Source: a bacterium (lineage in GTDB: Bacteria; RBG-13-66-14). Taken from it: 12,756 nucleotides of DNA. The DNA lies in the NCBI GenBank assembly GCA_021107695.1, contig JAIOSI010000280.1, positions 1 through 12,756 of the forward strand. The letters run 5' to 3'. A program made the position numbers and the translations under genes. The first letter of the stretch is position 1, and each line of letters starts with the position of its first letter. The notes beneath the pieces were generated by a model. It ran no database searches. It worked only from the letters and a program-made list of their open reading frames with translations, and was not told where the DNA came from. Below are positions 2,611 to 11,409 of the stretch, one piece after another.

Positions 2611-4707
2611 CTAACGGCTAATCACCGCACGTTTGGTAATTGCCTCGCCCGCTGCTTCCAAGCGAATCAGATAGACTCCTGTTGCCGAAGTTGAGCTATC
2701 CCAGCTTACGTTGTGCCGTCCGGCGGTCTGTTCGCCGCTAACCAACGTCTCGACCAGACGACCAGAGAGGTCATAGATGTTCAGTTCTACTAACCCATTT
2801 TGAGTCAACTCGTAGCTCACCGTCAGGGCAGAGCTTGCCGGGTTGGGGTACGGATCGCTCAGAGCCAACTCGCTCACTGCTCCGGGAACGACTATCTCAG
2901 AAGGTCCAAAGCGACTGACGGTGCCGTCAAGCTCCGTAATCTCAAGCCAGTAGGCGTATTCCATGCCAGCCTCGGCGGGGGCATCGAGCCAGCTTGTCGC
3001 CGAGCCGGAAAGCTCACCGCTCAGGTTAACTGACCCATTTTGGGTCAGTCCACGCAGGACACTGACCGTCGCCGGAGTATCGCCAACGATTGACCAGCTC
3101 AGCAGCACGCCTTCGTCTTTGGCATTGGCGTAGAGGTCAACGGACTCCACCGCCGTGCAATCTGTCCAGTTGATGGTGATGTCCTCGAAGGTCGGGCTGG
3201 CGGAGGTGTCTGTAGTCGTAAAGGCAACCTTATACTGGAAGTAACGGTCGTAGTCGGTGAGATAACTGCCCAGCTCGTCGCCGGAGCTGACCGCGAACCA
3301 GCTTCCCATGCTGCCGGAGTCGTTGCTGGCACGGACTTCCACAGCCAGTGTGGTGTTAGTGGGAGTATCCGCCGTCCAGCTTATCTGTCCCCACTCCGGC
3401 AGAGCGGCGGTATCGAGGATCGAACTGGTCAGGTTGCCGTTCGCTCTGAACTCTGTAACCTCCCACCAGGTGATGTCGTCGGCATAAAAAGCCGCTCCCA
3501 GAATGTCTAGAGCTCCGTCGCCGTTAATGTCCTCCGCATAAACTGTGTTGGCGGCATCAAAGCTTCCAGCAACGGTATGTTCTGTCCAACTGGTACCAGA
3601 ACCGTCGTCGTTTTTCCACCAGGTGATGTCATCAGCAGTCATAGCCGCACCCAGCACATCAATATCTCCATCACCATCAACATCAGCAGCATAGGCTGTA
3701 TAGGCACCGTCGAAACTGCCGTCAACGAGATGCTCTGTCCAGCTAGTACCGGAACCGTCGTCGTTCTCCCACCAAGTGATGTCGTCGTCGCTCCGTGCTG
3801 CCCCAAGCATATCAATATCTCCATCGCCATCAATGTCAGCACCGTAAACTGAATAGGCACCGTTAAAGCTGCCGTCAACAGTATGTTCTGTCCAGCTGGT
3901 GCCAGAACCGTCGTTGTTCTCCCACCAGGTGATGTCGTCGGCGTTGTAAGCCGAGCCAAGAACATCCAGGTAGCCGTCACCGTTTACATCCTCAGCAAAA
4001 ACTGAGGTAGCAGTATCAAAACTACCGTCAACGGTATGCTCTGTCCAACTAGTACCTGTGCCATCGTCATTCTTCCACCAGGTGATGTCGTCGGCATCTA
4101 TAGCTGCACCTAGCACATCAAGATAGCCATCAGCATCAACGTCGGCAGCGTAAACTGAATAGGCACCATTAAAGCTACCGTCAATAGTGTATTCGGTCCA
4201 ACTGGTGCCAGTCCCATCATCGTTTTTCCACCAGGTAATGTCATCGGCGATTCGTGCCACACCCAGAATATCTTGATAGCCATCGGCATCAACGTCAGCG
4301 GAGAAAACGGAGAAGGCACCATCAAAGCTGCCGTCAACGAGATGCTCGGTCCAGCTGGTACCAGAGCCATCGTCGTTCTCCCACCAGGTAATGTCATCGG
4401 CATCGCGAGCCGCACCGAGGATGTCCATATCGCCATCGTCATCAATATCAGCAGAATACACTGACCAGGCAGCATCAAAACTACCGTCAACGGTATGCTC
4501 GACCGGAGTCATAGGCGTGGACGAGAGGTGCAACTCACCGGGGAAAGCCAGCCAGCTTACATCGGTTGCCGTATCAAACTGGTCAGTCCAGTCGGTAACC
4601 GGACCAGCAACGCCATCGCCGCCAGACCAGTCGGTCTGAGCAGCGTCATCGGCAAAAACACTGTTAACCGTAAATAGCGCAAGCAGAACAAGGGCGAACC
4701 GTTTCAT
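2611..4707 (-). CDS. Secreted VCBS/FG-GAP seven-repeat propeller protein with type A sorting-domain-like tail
   Basis: This 698-residue exported protein has a signal peptide (RFALVLLALFTVNSVFA, cut after A19). Next is a leader segment with WSGGDGVAGPV at about 27-37. Seven consecutive repeats of exactly 51 residues cover 68-420. Each contains a calcium-loop-like D-x-D-x-D-G-x-x-D and ends in ADDITWW (DDDITWW in repeat 5), as in FG-GAP/VCBS repeats of integrin-type beta propellers. A beta-rich module follows at 421-520 (SSILDT..., RYFQYKVAF, SPTFEDITINW), then an FN3-like module at about 521-610. The tail at about 614-698 (PYPNPASSALTVSYEL, IYDLSGRLV, GVYLIRL) resembles Por/type IX secretion sorting domains or FlgD-like Ig domains. 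It is probably cell-surface or extracellular and binds ligand or calcium; no catalytic residues are visible. CGGAGG lies 5 nt before the ATG. Whether a type IX system exists in this genome cannot be seen here. Confidence 0.93.
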   Translation of the reverse strand: MKRFALVLLALFTVNSVFADDAAQTDWSGGDGVAGPVTDWTDQFDTATDVSWLAFPGELHLSSTPMTPVEHTVDGSFDAAWSVYSADIDDDGDMDILGAARDADDITWWENDDGSGTSWTEHLVDGSFDGAFSVFSADVDADGYQDILGVARIADDITWWKNDDGTGTSWTEYTIDGSFNGAYSVYAADVDADGYLDVLGAAIDADDITWWKNDDGTGTSWTEHTVDGSFDTATSVFAEDVNGDGYLDVLGSAYNADDITWWENNDGSGTSWTEHTVDGSFNGAYSVYGADIDGDGDIDMLGAARSDDDITWWENDDGSGTSWTEHLVDGSFDGAYTAYAADVDGDGDIDVLGAAMTADDITWWKNDDGSGTSWTEHTVAGSFDAANTVYAEDINGDGALDILGAAFYADDITWWEVTEFRANGNLTSSILDTAALPEWGQISWTADTPTNTTLAVEVRASNDSGSMGSWFAVSSGDELGSYLTDYDRYFQYKVAFTTTDTSASPTFEDITINWTDCTAVESVDLYANAKDEGVLLSWSIVGDTPATVSVLRGLTQNGSVNLSGELSGSATSWLDAPAEAGMEYAYWLEITELDGTVSRFGPSEIVVPGAVSELALSDPYPNPASSALTVSYELTQNGLVELNIYDLSGRLVETLVSGEQTAGRHNVSWDSSTSATGVYLIRLEAAGEAITKRAVISR
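3448..4506 (-). repeat. Seven tandem 153-bp coding repeats (propeller blades)
   Basis: Residues 68-420 of the propeller protein are seven units of 51 codons (the last is 47 codons before the sequence diverges), with no indels between units. Recurrent blocks are TEH[TL]VDGSF, VDGDG and DITWW[EK]N. Units vary mainly just before ADDITWW and in the codons after DGSF. This is intragenic expansion, not an array of independent elements. Confidence 0.9.
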
Positions 4708-4800: not shown

Positions 4801-4846
4801 GGTTCTCACCACGCGGCTGGTAAACTAGAACCGTCTGGTGTAAAAT
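4801..4846 (+). promoter_or_regulatory. Possible SMC promoter region with inverted repeat
   Basis: GGTTCT (4801-4806) and AGAACC (4827-4832) form a spaced inverted repeat. TAAAAT (4841-4846, 5/6 to TATAAT) is a possible -10, with only a poor -35 upstream. If it is used, transcription would begin after the ATG at 4845, which favours the TTG start of SMC at 4878. Weak evidence. Confidence 0.25.
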
Positions 4847-4877
4847 GCACTCTTCGGTAGCTAACCAAGGCGGCTTT

Positions 4878-7800
4878 TTGTTCTTAAAAAAACTCAGTAT
4901 TGCTGGCTTTAAGTCCTTTCCCGACCCGCTGGAGCTAAACCTGCGCGAGGGGATGACCGCCATTGTCGGACCTAACGGCTGTGGCAAGACGAACCTCTCC
5001 GATGCCATTCGCTGGGCACTGGGCGAGCAGCGGGTGCGCAGCCTGCGCGGTAAAAGCTCGGTGGACGTGATCTTCTCCGGCACCGAAGAGCGGCACCCCC
5101 TAGGGATGAGCGAGGTTTCGCTGCTCCTGGCAAACGAGGACAACCGACTGCCGGTGGAGTACGAGGATGTGCTGATCACCCGGCGGCTCTTCCGCTCCGG
5201 GGAGTCAGCGTACCTGCTCAACCAACGTCCCTGCCGACTGAAGGACATTCAGAACCTCCTCCTCGATACGGGAATTGGTACCAACGCCTATTCGATCATC
5301 GAGCAGGCGCAGGTTGACCTGATCCTCTCGCAGAACCCCCACAAGCGGCGGGAGATCTTCGACGAGGCAGCGGGAATCGGGCGTTACAAAAATCAACGCG
5401 CCGAGGCGACGAAGAAGCTGGAACAGACCGAGGGTGAGCTGCAACGGCTCAACGACCGTCTCGACGAGCTGACCACCCAGCTTCGGGGGTTGAAGCGCGA
5501 GGTCAACAAGGCGCAGCACTACAAACGGTTGGGCGAGGAGCTGCGCCAGGTTGAGGCTTATACCTATCGCTTCCATTGGGACAACCACCAGTCCCGCTCC
5601 GACGAGCTTAACCAGGGGCTGGAGACCGCACAGGACAAGCAGGCAGAGCTTGCCGCGAAGCTCGCCTCCGCCGATGCCGCCCTGACCGAGGCGCAGGAAG
5701 AGCAGCTTCGGGCGCAGAACACCCTGACCGAGGGTCAGCAGCAGAGCTATCACTCGCTGGAGCAGGTGAAGAACTTCGAGAACCGCCTCTCGCTCTCCAG
5801 AGAGAAACAGGCGGAACGAACCAGACGGAAGCGAGAACTGGAGCAGCGGCTTACCGAGCTTGGCGAGGAACAGTCGAGCCAGAACAGTGAGCTAACCGCG
5901 GGTAACGCGAAGGCGGCAGAGCTGCGCGAGGAGCTTGAGACCGTCCGGGAGCGCATTACCGCTTCGGAGGAAGAGCTGGCGGGACTGCGGGATGAGCTAC
6001 TGCTCCATCGAGGTGAGGCAAAACAGCTGGGGGTGGAGCTCCTCGATGCCGCTGGCTCCGGAGCCGAACGACAGCTTCGTCTGGAAGGTTTAGGCAAAGA
6101 ACGAGACAAACTGCGGCTGGAGGAAGACTCCAACGCCGAAGAGCTGATGCTTCTTGAGGAGAACCTCTCCGCCAAACAGGTTGAGGTCGATAAGCTCCGT
6201 GGTCGGCTCGATGCTCTGGAAGAGCGGCTGAAGGAGGCTCTGGAGCTTCAGCGCAACGCCAACAGGCAGATTGCCGAGGTCTCGGAGAAGACCCGGCGGA
6301 GTCTGGATGCCCTGACCCGGGCCCGCGCCAGCTTCGAGAGTCTGGAGCGGGTCTATCATAGTAACGAGAGCTTTAAGAAAGCTGTACGTGCTGTTCTCGC
6401 CGCCGGAAGTAAGGGTAGCCTCAGCGGTATCCACGGCGCGTTGGCGCAGCTGGTCTCCTGCGACAGTCAGTACGAGATTGCCATCGAAACCGCTCTCGGT
6501 GCCTCGTCTCAGGCGATAGTCTGCGATACCGAGGCCGATGCCCGGGCGGCGGTGGAGCTGCTCAAGCGGCTTCGTGTCGGACGGGCGCGCTTTTTCCCCC
6601 TGGATATCATTCGCCCCCGGAAACAGCCGTATTGCGCCCGGCAGATTCAGCACCCCGGACTGATTGACGACGCTCTCGCGCTGATTCACTTTGATTCCCT
6701 GATTACCCCGGCGGTGGAGTTCGCCCTCGGCGGAACGCTGGTCGCGGACACCCTCGCCTCGGCAACGGATCTGGTTCGCAGCTGGCGGGGACAGGTCAGC
6801 TTCCGGCGGATTGTCAGCCTCGACGGCGAGCTGGTGGAATCCAGCGGAGCCATCACCGGCGGCGATTCTGGAAAAGGTCGGCAGCATCTGCTCTCCCACG
6901 AGCGCGATCTGGATAAGCTCAGGGAGAACCTGGTCACCCTGCAAGAGGAGTACGACACCGCCCGTGCCGAAGAGAAACGACTGCGGGATAACTTCAGTCG
7001 GGTTGGCGAAACCCTCTCCGGTCAGCGGGAACAGCAGTCCGCCGATTCGCTGGAATGGGAGCGGGCGAAGGTGGCTCTGGAACGACAGCAGGAAGAGCAG
7101 CAGCGACTGGAGAAGACCGAAGAAGATCGCCTCCACCGACTGAGAGAGGTCGAGGAGGAACTGAAGCTGCTCAATAGTGAAGCCGAAGCCACCGACGATG
7201 CTCCTGACGAAGAGGAACTCCGGGAGCGGCACAGCGAGGCGTTAAACAAAGCCGAGCGGCTGGAGGCTCGCCTGAACCAGCGGCAGGAGGAGTTCGCCGC
7301 CATCCGGGAGGCACGGAACCGCCACGAGGTGGAACTGGAAGGTCTGGAGAAGGAGATTGAGCGGCTGAAGCGGGGGATCGCGCAGTCGGAGCTGCGCCGG
7401 GAGAAGCGGGAGCAGGAACTTGCCGAGGTGAAGGATGCGAGCAGCCGTGCCGACAGCGACCTGGAAGAACTCAGCGAGAAACTCTCCGAGCTGACCCTCT
7501 CTAAGGATGAAGAGGAGAAACAGCTCGGCAAGCTGCGGCTGGTTCTCAACAAAGCTGGCACGGAGTTTTCCGGTAAACTGGCAGAGCGAACCAAGCTCGA
7601 TACCAAAGTAGGCGAGGTCGAGAAACAGCTGACCAACCTGCGGGTCTCGCTGGAGCATGAACACGGTGAGCAGGAGCGGCTTATCGCCGAGGCTCTGGAG
7701 CGTACCGCATTGAAGCTGGACGAGGTCGCCCTGCCCGAAGACTTTGAGCTGACCGACTCGCACAAATCCGCCGACAAGCTCCGCCGTCGTCGGGAGCGAC

Positions 7801-8453
7801 TGGGACAGATCAACTTCTCCGCCCAGGCAAACTACGATGCGATCATGGAGCGCAAGGAGTTCCTCAACGGTCAGAGCGACGAACTGAACCGGGGAGCGAA
7901 CAGCCTCCGCGCCTCCATTCGGCGGCTGAACACCGAGGCGACGGAACGCTTCCTCACCACCTTCAATCAGGTGGTCTCCAACTTCGAGCGGCTCTTCTCG
8001 CAGATATTCGGTGGCGGAGAAGCCCGGCTCTCCCTGACCGATGAAGAACCGCTGGAGGCGGGAGTGGAGATTCACGTTCGCCCGCCGGGAAAGGGTGAGC
8101 AGAGTCTCATCGCCCGTTCCGGTGGAGAGAGGGCACTCACCGCCATCGCCCTGCTCTTCGCCCTCTTCGAGGCGAAGCCAAGCCCCTTCTGCATCCTCGA
8201 CGAGATCGACGCTCCCCTGGACGATGCCAATGTGGATCGCTTCCTCAAGCTGCTGGGGCGGTTCTCTACCCAGAGCCAGTTCCTGCTGATTACCCACAAC
8301 CGCCGGACGATGGAGTCCGCCGACACGCTGATCGGCGTTACGATGGACGAGCCAGGAGTGAGCCGGGTTTATAGCCTGGCGTTCCAGGGTGGACAGCTGA
8401 TAACCGAGGAAGACCAGCGGTCTTTCTCTCTGAAGCAAAAGAGGAAAAAATGA
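4878..8453 (+). CDS. smc: Chromosome segregation/condensation ATPase SMC
   Basis: This 1191-residue protein (from TTG) has the full SMC order. The N-terminal ATPase half has FLKKLSIAGFKSF and Walker A GPNGCGKT with K37, then the SMC-typical SIIEQAQVDLILSQNP and FDEAAGIGRYK. A long coiled coil rich in E, L, R and Q is followed by the hinge at about 517-662 (GIHGALAQLV to SGAITGG) and a return coiled coil. The C-terminal half has signature SGGERALTA (S1081-E1084) and Walker B FCILDEIDAP (D1108, catalytic E1109), then LLITHNRRTME. It forms a DNA-loop-extruding dimer, normally with ScpA and ScpB, on the nucleoid; neither partner is in the window. I chose TTG 4878 over ATG 4845. AAGG (4867-4870) lies 7 nt upstream, and SMC proteins normally begin M-[YFH]-L-K. 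The ATG has no ribosome site and would add 11 unusual residues. All key residues are intact. Confidence 0.97.
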   Translation: MFLKKLSIAGFKSFPDPLELNLREGMTAIVGPNGCGKTNLSDAIRWALGEQRVRSLRGKSSVDVIFSGTEERHPLGMSEVSLLLANEDNRLPVEYEDVLITRRLFRSGESAYLLNQRPCRLKDIQNLLLDTGIGTNAYSIIEQAQVDLILSQNPHKRREIFDEAAGIGRYKNQRAEATKKLEQTEGELQRLNDRLDELTTQLRGLKREVNKAQHYKRLGEELRQVEAYTYRFHWDNHQSRSDELNQGLETAQDKQAELAAKLASADAALTEAQEEQLRAQNTLTEGQQQSYHSLEQVKNFENRLSLSREKQAERTRRKRELEQRLTELGEEQSSQNSELTAGNAKAAELREELETVRERITASEEELAGLRDELLLHRGEAKQLGVELLDAAGSGAERQLRLEGLGKERDKLRLEEDSNAEELMLLEENLSAKQVEVDKLRGRLDALEERLKEALELQRNANRQIAEVSEKTRRSLDALTRARASFESLERVYHSNESFKKAVRAVLAAGSKGSLSGIHGALAQLVSCDSQYEIAIETALGASSQAIVCDTEADARAAVELLKRLRVGRARFFPLDIIRPRKQPYCARQIQHPGLIDDALALIHFDSLITPAVEFALGGTLVADTLASATDLVRSWRGQVSFRRIVSLDGELVESSGAITGGDSGKGRQHLLSHERDLDKLRENLVTLQEEYDTARAEEKRLRDNFSRVGETLSGQREQQSADSLEWERAKVALERQQEEQQRLEKTEEDRLHRLREVEEELKLLNSEAEATDDAPDEEELRERHSEALNKAERLEARLNQRQEEFAAIREARNRHEVELEGLEKEIERLKRGIAQSELRREKREQELAEVKDASSRADSDLEELSEKLSELTLSKDEEEKQLGKLRLVLNKAGTEFSGKLAERTKLDTKVGEVEKQLTNLRVSLEHEHGEQERLIAEALERTALKLDEVALPEDFELTDSHKSADKLRRRRERLGQINFSAQANYDAIMERKEFLNGQSDELNRGANSLRASIRRLNTEATERFLTTFNQVVSNFERLFSQIFGGGEARLSLTDEEPLEAGVEIHVRPPGKGEQSLIARSGGERALTAIALLFALFEAKPSPFCILDEIDAPLDDANVDRFLKLLGRFSTQSQFLLITHNRRTMESADTLIGVTMDEPGVSRVYSLAFQGGQLITEEDQRSFSLKQKRKK

Positions 8454-9517
8454 AGACGCTAACCGCCGCGCTGCTCCTGCTGGCTGTTTTCAGTATTCCT
8501 GCGCTGGCTTTTTACTTTCCGGTTCCCCAGCCCTTCCATCTAGGTATCTATGCCAAGAACGAACATCCTGATGTGGTGATGACAGACGAGTTTGTCAGTA
8601 TTGTTCTGGGAGCCGAAGGAGCCGTAGTCAACTCCGAGTTCACCTTCCACAATGAGGGAACGGCACAGACCGTGCCAATGTATTTTCTGCTGGAAAGCGA
8701 TAATCGATACAATATGATAGACGAGGATGAGTACGGCGGAGAACCGAAGGTAACGACGATCGAGGACATTTCCAACGCCGACTACAATTTTTTCGCAACC
8801 GTCAGTGGGAAAGAATATCCTGTACAGGTTTCTATAGAATCAACCATAGTATATACAAGCGAGGAGTCAGAGCCAGGTTACTATTATACTCAGGAGTACT
8901 CACACAGCTATGCCCTCTACGAAATACCATTTGAAGCAGGCGAAACGCTAACGCTGTCTGTGAAGTACTGGCAAAGATACAGTGGTCCCAACTTCGCCGA
9001 CTGGTGGCATATGTATTATAAGATTCACACGGGAGGCTCCTGGAAGGGACCGATCGGTCATGGGATTGTCGAAGTAACCGCTGGTTCCGACTTCAACTGG
9101 AACGGAGTCTGGCAGTACCAGTCGGTTTCTCTGCCACCAGCCACCGAGAAAGGTGGTAAGCTGGTCTGGGAGTTTGACGAACTGGAGCCAGAAAGAGATA
9201 GTATCTGGGGGACGTGTATCAGAGTGATGATGCCCTTTGATAACCAGCCCTGCTGGGGAATCGTCCTTGTCGAGAGCGGAATCAACTTTCGCTCTGAACG
9301 GAATAACACCTCGGCACGGGTCGCCGCTCACCCGGTGATGAAAGAGGGCGAGTACTTTACCATTTTTGAGCGACAGGGCGACTGGTGGCGCGTAGAGGAC
9401 GAAGAGGGTAACCCGGGCTGGTTGCGCTGGCGTTACGTTGATGGAGATAAAGAGAACATCTATGCTGCGATCACTCCTGCTAAGAACACCTACCACGCGC
9501 TTAATGGCGGAGGTTAG
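8450..9517 (+). CDS. Secreted DUF4424-like protein with C-terminal SH3-like domain (paralogue 1)
   Basis: This 355-residue protein has a Sec signal peptide (KTLTAALLLLAVFSIPALA, cut after A20). Its main region, about 35-285, follows the layout of DUF4424. An early acidic start (EHPDVVMTDEFVSIVL) and a strand pair FTFHNEGTAQTVPMYF come first. YEIPFEAGETLTLSVKYWQ and TGGSWKGPIGHG follow, and then the late WEFDELEPERD motif. Residues 289-338 form an SH3-like barrel (FTIFERQGDWWRV, GWLRWRYV), a domain that in exported bacterial proteins often binds cell-wall peptide. Its start overlaps the SMC stop (ATGA) and AGAGG precedes it by 6 nt, so translation is probably coupled to SMC. It is the first of three tandem paralogues. 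Residues about 120-150 are coded by unusually AT-rich DNA and differ most from paralogue 2. Biochemical function is unknown. Export and domain order are confident; the DUF4424 name rests on pattern memory. Confidence 0.88.
   Translation: MKTLTAALLLLAVFSIPALAFYFPVPQPFHLGIYAKNEHPDVVMTDEFVSIVLGAEGAVVNSEFTFHNEGTAQTVPMYFLLESDNRYNMIDEDEYGGEPKVTTIEDISNADYNFFATVSGKEYPVQVSIESTIVYTSEESEPGYYYTQEYSHSYALYEIPFEAGETLTLSVKYWQRYSGPNFADWWHMYYKIHTGGSWKGPIGHGIVEVTAGSDFNWNGVWQYQSVSLPPATEKGGKLVWEFDELEPERDSIWGTCIRVMMPFDNQPCWGIVLVESGINFRSERNNTSARVAAHPVMKEGEYFTIFERQGDWWRVEDEEGNPGWLRWRYVDGDKENIYAAITPAKNTYHALNGGG
9317..9442 (+). repeat. SH3-domain duplication, copy A
   Basis: These 42 codons differ from copy B (10483-10608) at 18 of 126 bases by my hand alignment (about 86% identity) and at 4 of 42 residues. 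Both contain the same 21-base run GCGACAGGGCGACTGG plus the next five bases. The rest of the two genes is clearly more diverged. Confidence 0.8.
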
Positions 9518-9540
9518 AGAAAAGAGTTCTCCGTTTTCTC
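9517..9540 (+). repeat. Small hairpin after paralogue 1
   Basis: GAGAAAA (9517-9523) pairs with TTTTCTC (9534-9540) around a 10-nt loop, directly after the stop codon and before the AAGGAG ribosome site of the next gene. With no T-tract after the stem it is not a standard terminator. It may modulate read-through or mRNA stability. Weak. Confidence 0.3.
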
Positions 9541-9591
9541 CGGTGTACTACCCCTCAATTGTCGGATCAGTATTACTCATAAGGAGTTACG

Positions 9592-10668
9592 ATGAAACGG
9601 TACACTATTGTTTTGTTCCTCCTGGTGATTTTATCCATGCCCGCGCTTGCCGATTCCGGCTCGTACTGGAGCGATTTTTCTAATCCTCAGCCATTTAAGC
9701 CCGGTGAGGATGAGATAGAACACCCCGATGTGGTGATGGCAGACGAGTATGTGACTATTACACTCGATCAAGGCGGTGCCTGGGTGGACGCAAACTTTAC
9801 CTTCCGCAACGAGGGCGCGGCTCAAACCGTGCCGATGTACTTTCCGCTGGAAAGCTCTCGCGGATGGAGCCTGATAAGCGAGGAAGAGTATAGTGGAGAG
9901 TCGGAGGTAACGACGGTCGATGAAATCACCAACAGCGAGTATAGCTTCTCTGCAAGCATCCAAGAGCTAGAATTGAAGGAGCGAATAATCAGGGAGACAA
10001 CTCTTCGGGTCAACCAGGAAACGCTTGAGGAGCTGGGGGCTTATGAAGCTAGCATCCATTTTGACACCTATGCCCTCTATGAGGTGCCTTTTGACGCAGG
10101 GGAAACCCTCTGGCTATCCGTTCGCTATTGGCAGAAATACAGCGTTCCCAAACACGCCACGTGGGTAGAGATGTTCTATCCGGTTTACACTGGTGGCTCA
10201 TGGCAGGGACCGATTGGCCACGGTATCATTGAGATTAATTCCTGGGGATCCTTTGACTGGAACGGACGCTGGCAGTTCCGCTCCATCGGGCTACCCCCGG
10301 CCCGCGAGGAACGTAACAAGGACAATGTGCGTTTTGGCAGTCTCTTCTGGGAGTTCACCAATCTGGAGCCTGAACGTGGTGCTGGCGTGGAAGTCTTGAT
10401 GATCGGCCACTCCGAACCCTGGGGTAATGTCCTGGCAACTGGTGGAATCAACTTCCGCACCCTTCCTGAGCCAGCAGCAGCGAGAGTATCCGCTCACCCG
10501 GTGATGAAAGAAGGCGAGCTTTTTACCATTTTCGGGCGACAGGGCGACTGGTGGCGGGTTGAGGACGAAGAGGGCAACATCGGCTGGCTGCGCTGGCGTT
10601 ACGTTGACCCGGACACGGGCAAAGAAAGCATCTACGCTACCTTCACAAACCTGTATGCGGGAGCCTGA
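9592..10668 (+). CDS. Secreted DUF4424-like protein with C-terminal SH3-like domain (paralogue 2)
   Basis: This 358-residue paralogue of the preceding gene has the same order of parts. The signal peptide is RYTIVLFLLVILSMPALA (cut after A20). The DUF4424-like region, about 35-290, contains EHPDVVMADEYVTITL, FTFRNEGAAQTVPMYFPLE, YEVPFDAGETLWLSVRYWQ, TGGSWQGPIGHG and WEFTNLEPERG. The SH3-like domain lies at about 297-347 (FTIFGRQGDWWRV, GWLRWRYV). Acidic-aromatic composition suggests a soluble beta-rich envelope protein. AAGGAG with 5-nt spacing precedes the ATG, the strongest ribosome site of the triplet. A 74-nt gap with a small hairpin separates it from paralogue 1, so it may be co-transcribed with SMC or have its own promoter. 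The gene is intact. Function is unknown; a partner role with its two neighbours is likely from tandem arrangement only. Confidence 0.88.
   Translation: MKRYTIVLFLLVILSMPALADSGSYWSDFSNPQPFKPGEDEIEHPDVVMADEYVTITLDQGGAWVDANFTFRNEGAAQTVPMYFPLESSRGWSLISEEEYSGESEVTTVDEITNSEYSFSASIQELELKERIIRETTLRVNQETLEELGAYEASIHFDTYALYEVPFDAGETLWLSVRYWQKYSVPKHATWVEMFYPVYTGGSWQGPIGHGIIEINSWGSFDWNGRWQFRSIGLPPAREERNKDNVRFGSLFWEFTNLEPERGAGVEVLMIGHSEPWGNVLATGGINFRTLPEPAAARVSAHPVMKEGELFTIFGRQGDWWRVEDEEGNIGWLRWRYVDPDTGKESIYATFTNLYAGA
10483..10608 (+). repeat. SH3-domain duplication, copy B
   Basis: Counterpart of copy A at 9317-9442. Most differences are synonymous; the amino-acid changes are Ala/Ser, Tyr/Leu, Glu/Gly and Pro/Ile. 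This is the most conserved segment shared by the two paralogues. Confidence 0.8.
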
Positions 10669-10673
10669 TACCG

Positions 10674-11348
10674 ATGAGATACTCCCTCCTGCTCATCTGC
10701 CTGCTGGCTCTGGCGACCCTTGCTAACATCGCGCCGGGATGGTGGGTCGAGGAGTCTTCCACCACCGAGCGTGGTGAGCATCCGCAGAACATAATGGCAG
10801 ACGAGGAGGTAACGGTCTTCTTCTGGGAGGACTGCGTGCTGGTCGAGGCGTGGTACGACATGCACAACTCCGGCGAAGCCACCCGCAACGCCATGCTGCT
10901 GCCGATGTACTTCGAGTATCCCGACGAGGTAAGCGACTTCGAGCCGTCGGTTACGGTCTCAATCAACGGTGAGTCTCTGGAGAGCCATATCACTCGCCGA
11001 CGGCAGTACGACGAGGCGGGAAACCACACTGCGACGCTGGTCTCCGCCCTCTTCCGGGGGGATGATCTGCCCGCCAAGGTTACCACTCGCTTCTCGGTAA
11101 GCTATCTGGCTCCCTACACCGCCGAGGGTTGCTTTGAGTATCCTCTCGGCACAGGAGGCGGCTGGCAAAACGCAATCGGACATGGCGTTCTCTGGCTGCG
11201 TCCGGGACCCGGAGCCGACTGGAGCATTGTGGAGGAGTACGGCGATGTCGCTCTGCCAGAGCCGAGCTTCGACGGCGATACCGTCCGCTGGGAGTTCACC
11301 GAACTTGAACCGCCAGCTGATACCTGCTACTGGCTGCGAGTAAAATAG
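10674..11348 (+). CDS. Secreted DUF4424-like protein without SH3 domain (paralogue 3)
   Basis: This 224-residue protein is a shorter, more diverged member of the tandem family. A signal peptide (RYSLLLICLLALATLA, cut near A17 or A20) is followed by the same landmarks as its neighbours: EHPQNIMADEEVTVFF, MHNSGEATRNAMLLPMYF, TGGGWQNAIGHG and VRWEFTELEPPAD. It stops soon after the last motif, so the C-terminal SH3-like domain of paralogues 1 and 2 is absent. The central insert between the two halves is also shorter. The ATG lies 5 nt after the paralogue 2 stop codon. The only ribosome-site candidate, GGAG (10660-10663), is 10 nt upstream inside that gene, pointing to translational coupling. It has four cysteines including C9 in the signal peptide. 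It ends 17 nt before a strong terminator, so it is the last gene of this transcript. Function is unknown. Confidence 0.85.
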   Translation: MRYSLLLICLLALATLANIAPGWWVEESSTTERGEHPQNIMADEEVTVFFWEDCVLVEAWYDMHNSGEATRNAMLLPMYFEYPDEVSDFEPSVTVSINGESLESHITRRRQYDEAGNHTATLVSALFRGDDLPAKVTTRFSVSYLAPYTAEGCFEYPLGTGGGWQNAIGHGVLWLRPGPGADWSIVEEYGDVALPEPSFDGDTVRWEFTELEPPADTCYWLRVK

Positions 11349-11365
11349 CTATTCTACGGAAATAG

Positions 11366-11395
11366 AAAAAGAGGAGGTCAGAGCCTCCTCTTTTT
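11366..11395. terminator. Bidirectional Rho-independent terminator
   Basis: AAAAAGAGGAGG (11366-11377) pairs with CCTCCTCTTTTT (11384-11395) around a 6-nt loop. The stem has a GC-rich core flanked by an A-tract and a T-tract, so it works from either side. It lies between the convergent paralogue 3 and acetyltransferase genes, 17 nt and 14 nt from their stop codons. Confidence 0.93.
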
Positions 11396-11409
11396 TCATA
11401 CCGATGGCT

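Follow-up and report, generated by a model that had tools for sequence, protein, structure and literature searches.

Tandem genes for predicted exported DUF4424-fold proteins behind smc carry a hypervariable cassette that appears to be exchanged by recombination

What are three related genes for predicted secreted proteins doing directly behind the gene of the chromosome segregation protein SMC, and why do two of them differ so strongly in one short segment? We asked this for a 12,756-nucleotide (nt) contig of a bacterium of GTDB lineage RBG-13-66-14 (JAIOSI010000280.1 of assembly GCA_021107695.1; the whole stretch is called the window here, and is G000:C139 in our genome set), which belongs to an assembly of 1.83 Mb in 315 contigs that is 70.6% complete. 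A sequence-only reading had described the three genes, here named A, B and C, as DUF4424-like and had proposed a multi-subunit or ligand-diversified envelope system. Based on comparisons with relatives in other genomes, we suggest, with a probability of about one half, that A and B are exported, wall-associated recognition proteins with a specificity piece exchanged by recombination. The features of the gene run are as follows:

4845..8453 (+), smc (chromosome segregation protein SMC), first gene of the run; PF02463 7.3e-65, PF06470 2.2e-29
8450..9517 (+), gene A, predicted exported DUF4424-fold plus SH3-like protein of 355 residues; open frame, homology
8696..8905 (+), cassette of A, residues 83-152; GC content 0.44 vs 0.53 in the rest of the gene
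9335..9442 (+), SH3-like domain of A, residues 296-331 matched; PF08239 4.8e-4, PF06347 7.8e-4, below the Pfam cut-off
9592..10668 (+), gene B, predicted exported DUF4424-fold plus SH3-like protein of 358 residues; open frame, homology, model
9853..10065 (+), cassette of B, residues 88-158; its type differs from that of A (31% identical)
10447..10605 (+), SH3-like domain of B, residues 286-338; PF08239 1.1e-4, PF06347 6.5e-4, below the Pfam cut-off
10674..11348 (+), gene C, predicted exported DUF4424-fold protein of 224 residues without SH3, conserved and without cassette diversification; homology, model
11365..11396 (+), hairpin and U run after C; -20.7 kcal/mol, z -4.5, 0 of 200 shuffles as good

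The earlier description of three adjacent related genes was borne out, and the three are paralogues. In BLASTP, A and B were 52.8% identical over 358 columns (E 8e-119), A and C 27.0% (E 1e-19) and B and C 28.8% (E 1e-16), far above chance; the landmarks that had been pointed out (EHPxxxM-DE, PMYF, TGG-W--xIGHG and WEF-xLEP) also align across all three. Hydrophobic N-terminal stretches were seen in A, B and C by inspection, and in B and C the model likewise places a helix there. Protein searches at E<=0.001 returned 14 A/B-type proteins (the window's own B and A included) and 10 C-type proteins. The A/B alignment comprised 15 proteins, leaving out P0011 (a fragment), P0013 (a near copy of P0012), P0014 and distant relatives; trees were built from 14 rows (P0012 dropped), and pair scans used 13 rows (P0012 and the fragment P0010 dropped), beginning at B residue 41 and C residue 35.

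Divergence within the A/B proteins is concentrated in one place. In the window, the contrast between A and B is greatest at B 122-159, with 19% identity there and 62% elsewhere (p 0.0055). Among seven close proteins the difference per 20-column window ranged from 0.49 to 0.75 across alignment columns 90-189 (about B 88-170) and nowhere else exceeded 0.44. A divergent segment, defined by p<=0.01 and a length of at least 15 residues, was present in 52 of the 78 A/B pairs, in all 52 within B 85-161, compared with 3/55 C pairs; when pairs were matched for overall identity (53-75%), the counts were 35/40 for A/B and 3/41 for C.

The clearest case came from two genomes of a single genus, G002 and G005, whose B loci can be aligned as pieces with 80-90% DNA identity that cover about 9.7 of 12.0 kb. 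Their syntenic B orthologues (G002B and G005B) are 81% identical outside the cassette and 29% inside it. At the base level, 92/171 positions differ in one segment vs 159/870 in the rest of the gene (shuffle p<=0.0005). Synonymous-site divergence (pS) is 1.01 in the cassette vs 0.33-0.44 in three flank regions, with amino-acid identities of 0.29 vs 0.76-0.86; synonymous sites in this cassette are saturated. The GC content of the G002B cassette is 0.43 vs 0.61 in the rest of the gene, in which the lowest window of that size has 0.58, and this cassette is 74% identical to that of P0010 and 54% to those of P0008 and of A, the latter from another genus. The C proteins of G002 and G005 are 0.90 identical in the region equivalent to the cassette, and C has not been cassette-replaced between these genomes. 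Database proteins gave a similar picture. Between P0004 and P0007, encoded on contigs equal in size and source, identity is 84% for the flanks and 32% for the cassette. P0002 follows B at both ends, with 89-100% identity over its first three windows and 100% over its last, and through much of its middle it resembles A, P0004 and P0007 more closely than B; comparison of P0002 with B and A gave 27 runs where 55 were expected (0/5000 shuffles).

Judged from these alignments, the cassette and flank trees conflict. In approximately unbiased (AU) tests, the cassette data rejected the grouping P0005+P0006+G002B+G005B (p-AU 0.0004), which the flanks neither demand nor reject (p-AU 0.18), and the flank data rejected A+P0008+P0010+G002B (p-AU 6e-42), which the cassette data do not reject (p 0.11). 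Exchange of the ~70-residue cassette between lineages and paralogues by recombination, with both sides conserved, is thus well supported by sequence comparison. In a search of 10 genomes for silent cassette stores (E<=0.1; G000 being 70.6% complete), the A and B cassettes had no matches beyond the complete A/B genes of G000 and the G002 B gene, which makes other cells or the paralogues the probable donors. Recent A-B conversion within the window found no support, since pS is 0.60 in the SH3 region vs 0.57-0.68 elsewhere. Mis-assembly of G002B would not by itself account for the pattern, because segments of this kind also occur in P0002, P0003, P0004 and P0007, which come from other sources. 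We additionally observed that the database fragments P0010 and P0011 both start close to a cassette border, as if assembly or gene calls break there; these breaks could reflect strain mixture.

To what kind of protein does the cassette belong? Models were built for B (15-row alignment, pLDDT 79.5) and C (11-row alignment, pLDDT 76.6), and each had its best Z with the DUF4424 structure 4g2a (lpg2210), at 14.3 for B (172 aligned, 3.3 A) and 13.6 for C (176 aligned, 3.1 A). Next by Z were oligosaccharyltransferase chains, which we take to be ribophorin I/OST1, and M1 aminopeptidase N-domains; by Foldseek E-value 4g2a ranked second for B (behind inter-alpha-inhibitor heavy chain 1) and first for C. 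The fold of A would follow from its 53% identity to the modelled B. The DUF4424 resemblance suggested earlier thus holds as a fold but not as membership of PF14415. The PF14415 profile gave no match to A, B or C at E<=1, where HMMER filters discard most matches above about 0.1. A scan of the own genome at E<=10 gave none at A, B or C and only 11.3 bits at C186 (the Pfam cut-off is 27 bits), and among 145 genomes at E<=0.001 there was one match (G067, outside the phylum) and none in the 13 other genomes of the phylum. Because this profile gives no match, we call the modelled proteins DUF4424-fold rather than members of PF14415. SH3-like domains were matched by profile in A and B, below the Pfam cut-off, and not in C, which lacks the C-terminal SH3-like part of the other two; precomputed PF08239 or PF06347 annotation exists for 6/14 of the listed A/B-type proteins. 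NCBIfam gave nothing beyond weak matches, SH3-type or chance, and profiles from the B-type and C-type alignments, run against PDB sequences, were set aside after weak SH3 matches and apparent chance matches. Among the matches listed, our literature search on hypervariable, cassette and SH3b proteins returned no paper on the A/B/C family.

DUF4424 proteins share the beta-sandwich with A, B and C and are exported, as A, B and C are predicted to be, and some members have a C-terminal accessory domain, as do A and B. However, that C-terminus is YARHG or CARDB in DUF4424 proteins and SH3-like in A and B, and cassette exchange is not mentioned for the family in the available part of PMC3848476. Unlike the leukotriene A4 hydrolase/M1 aminopeptidase N-terminal domain and the oligosaccharyltransferase chains, A, B and C are stand-alone, predicted exported bacterial proteins without a catalytic domain.

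A hypervariable piece in a conserved frame is a general sign of recognition. Because exchange with a kept frame generally marks recognition, as in TraA of myxobacteria (PMC6372800, available in part), we read the cassette as a putative site of partner contact. TraA is a polymorphic receptor with a variable domain for which allele shuffling has been suggested; as far as the available part of that source goes, it works like A and B, as predicted for these, in being exported with one hypervariable part in a more conserved frame (PMC6372800). TraA acts by homotypic recognition through its variable domain, together with TraB, whereas A and B are likened to it by analogy alone. In the mechanism we propose, A and B would be exported proteins with a DUF4424-type beta-sandwich (the fold of M1 aminopeptidase N-terminal domains) and an SH3-like domain, which, from what is known of such families, may anchor the protein at the cell wall. 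The cassette would contact a variable partner, such as another cell, a phage, matrix or a nutrient molecule, and C would be the bare sandwich, a constant relative of A and B. The A-B tandem would let one cell hold two cassette types together, and two types per genome were found both here (A and B being 31% identical in the cassette) and, if P0004 and P0007 lie on one contig, there too (32%); two tandem types fit more than one specificity per cell. It is a tentative and so far doubtful extension that the locus serves self/non-self or phage/predator recognition, anchored in the cell wall of an uncultured phylum, with a sandwich scaffold and an exchangeable cassette of two types in tandem.

Several observations weigh against recognition by an exchanged cassette. 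No divergent segment was found in 26 of the 78 A/B pairs; these include pairs with a shared cassette type (A-P0008, G004b-G005b2) and some strongly diverged ones, but A-G002B, B-G002B and B-P0003 are neither. The cassette GC content of B, G005B, G004b and G005b2 is near that of their genes, and 28 N lie within the G005B cassette. The shuffles take sites as exchangeable, which real proteins violate, the C family serving as a control for the cost of this, and the AU groups were picked after the identity matrix had been viewed. Foldseek gave low TM-scores against 4g2a (0.37/0.41 with B, 0.52/0.38 with C), and PF08239 scored 20.7 bits in A and 22.7 in B vs a cut-off of 27. Finally, ligand, receptor and surface exposure are all putative, and the sequences come from scattered genomes, not populations.

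One alternative is that A, B and C form one envelope complex, perhaps one onto which a catalytic partner docks, along the lines suggested for DUF4424 proteins. The tandem, the ATG of A at 8450 inside the stop of smc (which ends AAATGA at 8453) and the B-C gap of 5 nt suggest coupled expression; this overlap and this gap confirm the tight spacing claimed earlier, which does not extend to A and B, 74 nt apart. B-like (648-1721) and C-like (1793-2485) genes also adjoin each other on G003:C62, in a genus other than the window's, and multi-component enzymes were proposed by the DUF4424 authors, according to the part of PMC3848476 available. On the other hand, B-type and C-type genes lie on separate contigs in G002, G004 and G005, G006 has C with no full-length B found (assembly 88% complete), and the cassette divergence of A and B would be odd for a fixed interface. 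A common complex is thus unlikely in our view; as to the earlier proposal, its ligand-diversified half gains from the exchanged hypervariable cassette in A and B, and its multi-subunit half found no direct support.

The variable segment might instead be a loosely constrained, fast-drifting insert that is neither exchanged nor involved in recognition. Its length varies, it sits among hairpin strands, and in several pairs just part of it is divergent. However, drift of this kind changes amino acids and not synonymous sites, whereas pS between G002B and G005B rises abruptly, inside sharp borders, from about 0.4 to 1.0; with the GC jump in G002B and a cassette kinship that conflicts with that of the flanks, drift becomes a rather improbable account.

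We also considered that A, B and C might be accessory factors in cell-wall hydrolysis (amidase or FtsEX-controlled), in which case the SH3-like domain would bind peptidoglycan. Two Amidase_3 genes in tandem precede the lone B gene on the same strand in G002 and G005 (L064 7403-9691; L065 7357-9608), with a 267-residue gene in between in G002, the B-C pair of G003 has an ABC ATPase and FtsX downstream, and the window itself encodes an M23 peptidase. However, G002 and G005 are a single genus, no family gene was found on the tandem-amidase contigs G001:C153 and G003:C125, and only 1 of 13 genomes with FtsX has it on the same stretch of contig as a family gene, although most assemblies are fragmented and such adjacency may be missed. 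Amidase and FtsX were rejected as general partners, the adjacency not being seen across genera, and a hydrolytic role, which would leave the cassette unexplained, appears improbable.

How far does the position behind smc go? SMC proteins 90% and 88% identical to that of the window are encoded on a 12,289-nt contig (jgi) and a 13,819-nt contig (ncbi), to which P0008+P0015+P0026 and P0004+P0007+P0016+P0027, respectively, were assigned from equal nt size and source, gene order not being read. By this contig bookkeeping the triplet and its smc linkage recur in close relatives. The recurrence does not reach four more distant genomes, in which no family gene was found on the 3' side of smc: G002 (3.9 kb), G005 (6 kb), G003 (1.4 kb, contig end) and G006 (0.5 kb, contig end). 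The same holds for G012 within 3.3 kb. G012, which represents a different family of the phylum, has a distant A/B-type gene (L071 4658-5737; 27% to B) that lies 4.4 kb upstream of smc (10117-13677) on the same strand. In the wider family, B-type genes, C-type genes and smc are mostly apart, and therefore the smc linkage is local gene order. Service of the trio to SMC or chromosome segregation, for which the ATGA overlap, the two close relatives and G012 might speak, is highly improbable and was dismissed, since the proteins appear exported by inspection and the smc 3' sides of the four distant genomes (0.5-6 kb read) hold no family gene. The smc-A-B-C run reflects gene order and probably co-transcription, not shared function. 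The hairpin at 11365-11396 is likely the terminator of this run and perhaps also terminates the convergent gene; a consensus terminator scan did not list it, probably because its stem extends into the T run.

B matches occurred in 11/61 genomes and C matches in 9/61 (G000 counted), all within the window's phylum, some of them partial, such as the SH3-like end alone. Of the six further genomes in the same family, five have C orthologues (56-61%) and four have near full-length B-type genes. C lies between ffh and rpoD/dnaG in G002 and G004 (dnaG of G004 by an N-terminal match alone), a setting partly kept in G005 (response regulator, dnaG) and G006 (DUF1847). C relatives are encoded in two Candidatus Coatesbacteria records (L084, L085), and one C homologue is likewise named; on this ground the host is presumably related to Coatesbacteria. 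Longer relatives of 444 and 424 residues (L082 229-1563 and L083 4785-6056), with partial A/B similarity and without Pfam match, constitute on this similarity a further class of the A/B/C family.

Elsewhere in the window, the M23 peptidase (130-1146, -; PF01551 3.8e-32) has an N-terminal hydrophobic segment and lies near genes for small, probably exported proteins at 1203-1637 and 1728-2327. A protein of 698 residues (2611-4707, -) with FG-GAP repeats and a match to Por_Secre_tail (type IX secretion sorting, 3e-11) suggests type IX-like secretion in this lineage.

The fold of DUF4424 proteins has been solved, but no function has been assigned to them. An exchanged piece in a kept frame marks a possible place of partner binding on such a fold and makes recognition a testable question. 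We know of no cultured member of Coatesbacteria, and in these organisms the exchanged cassette would be a sign of envelope-protein diversification.

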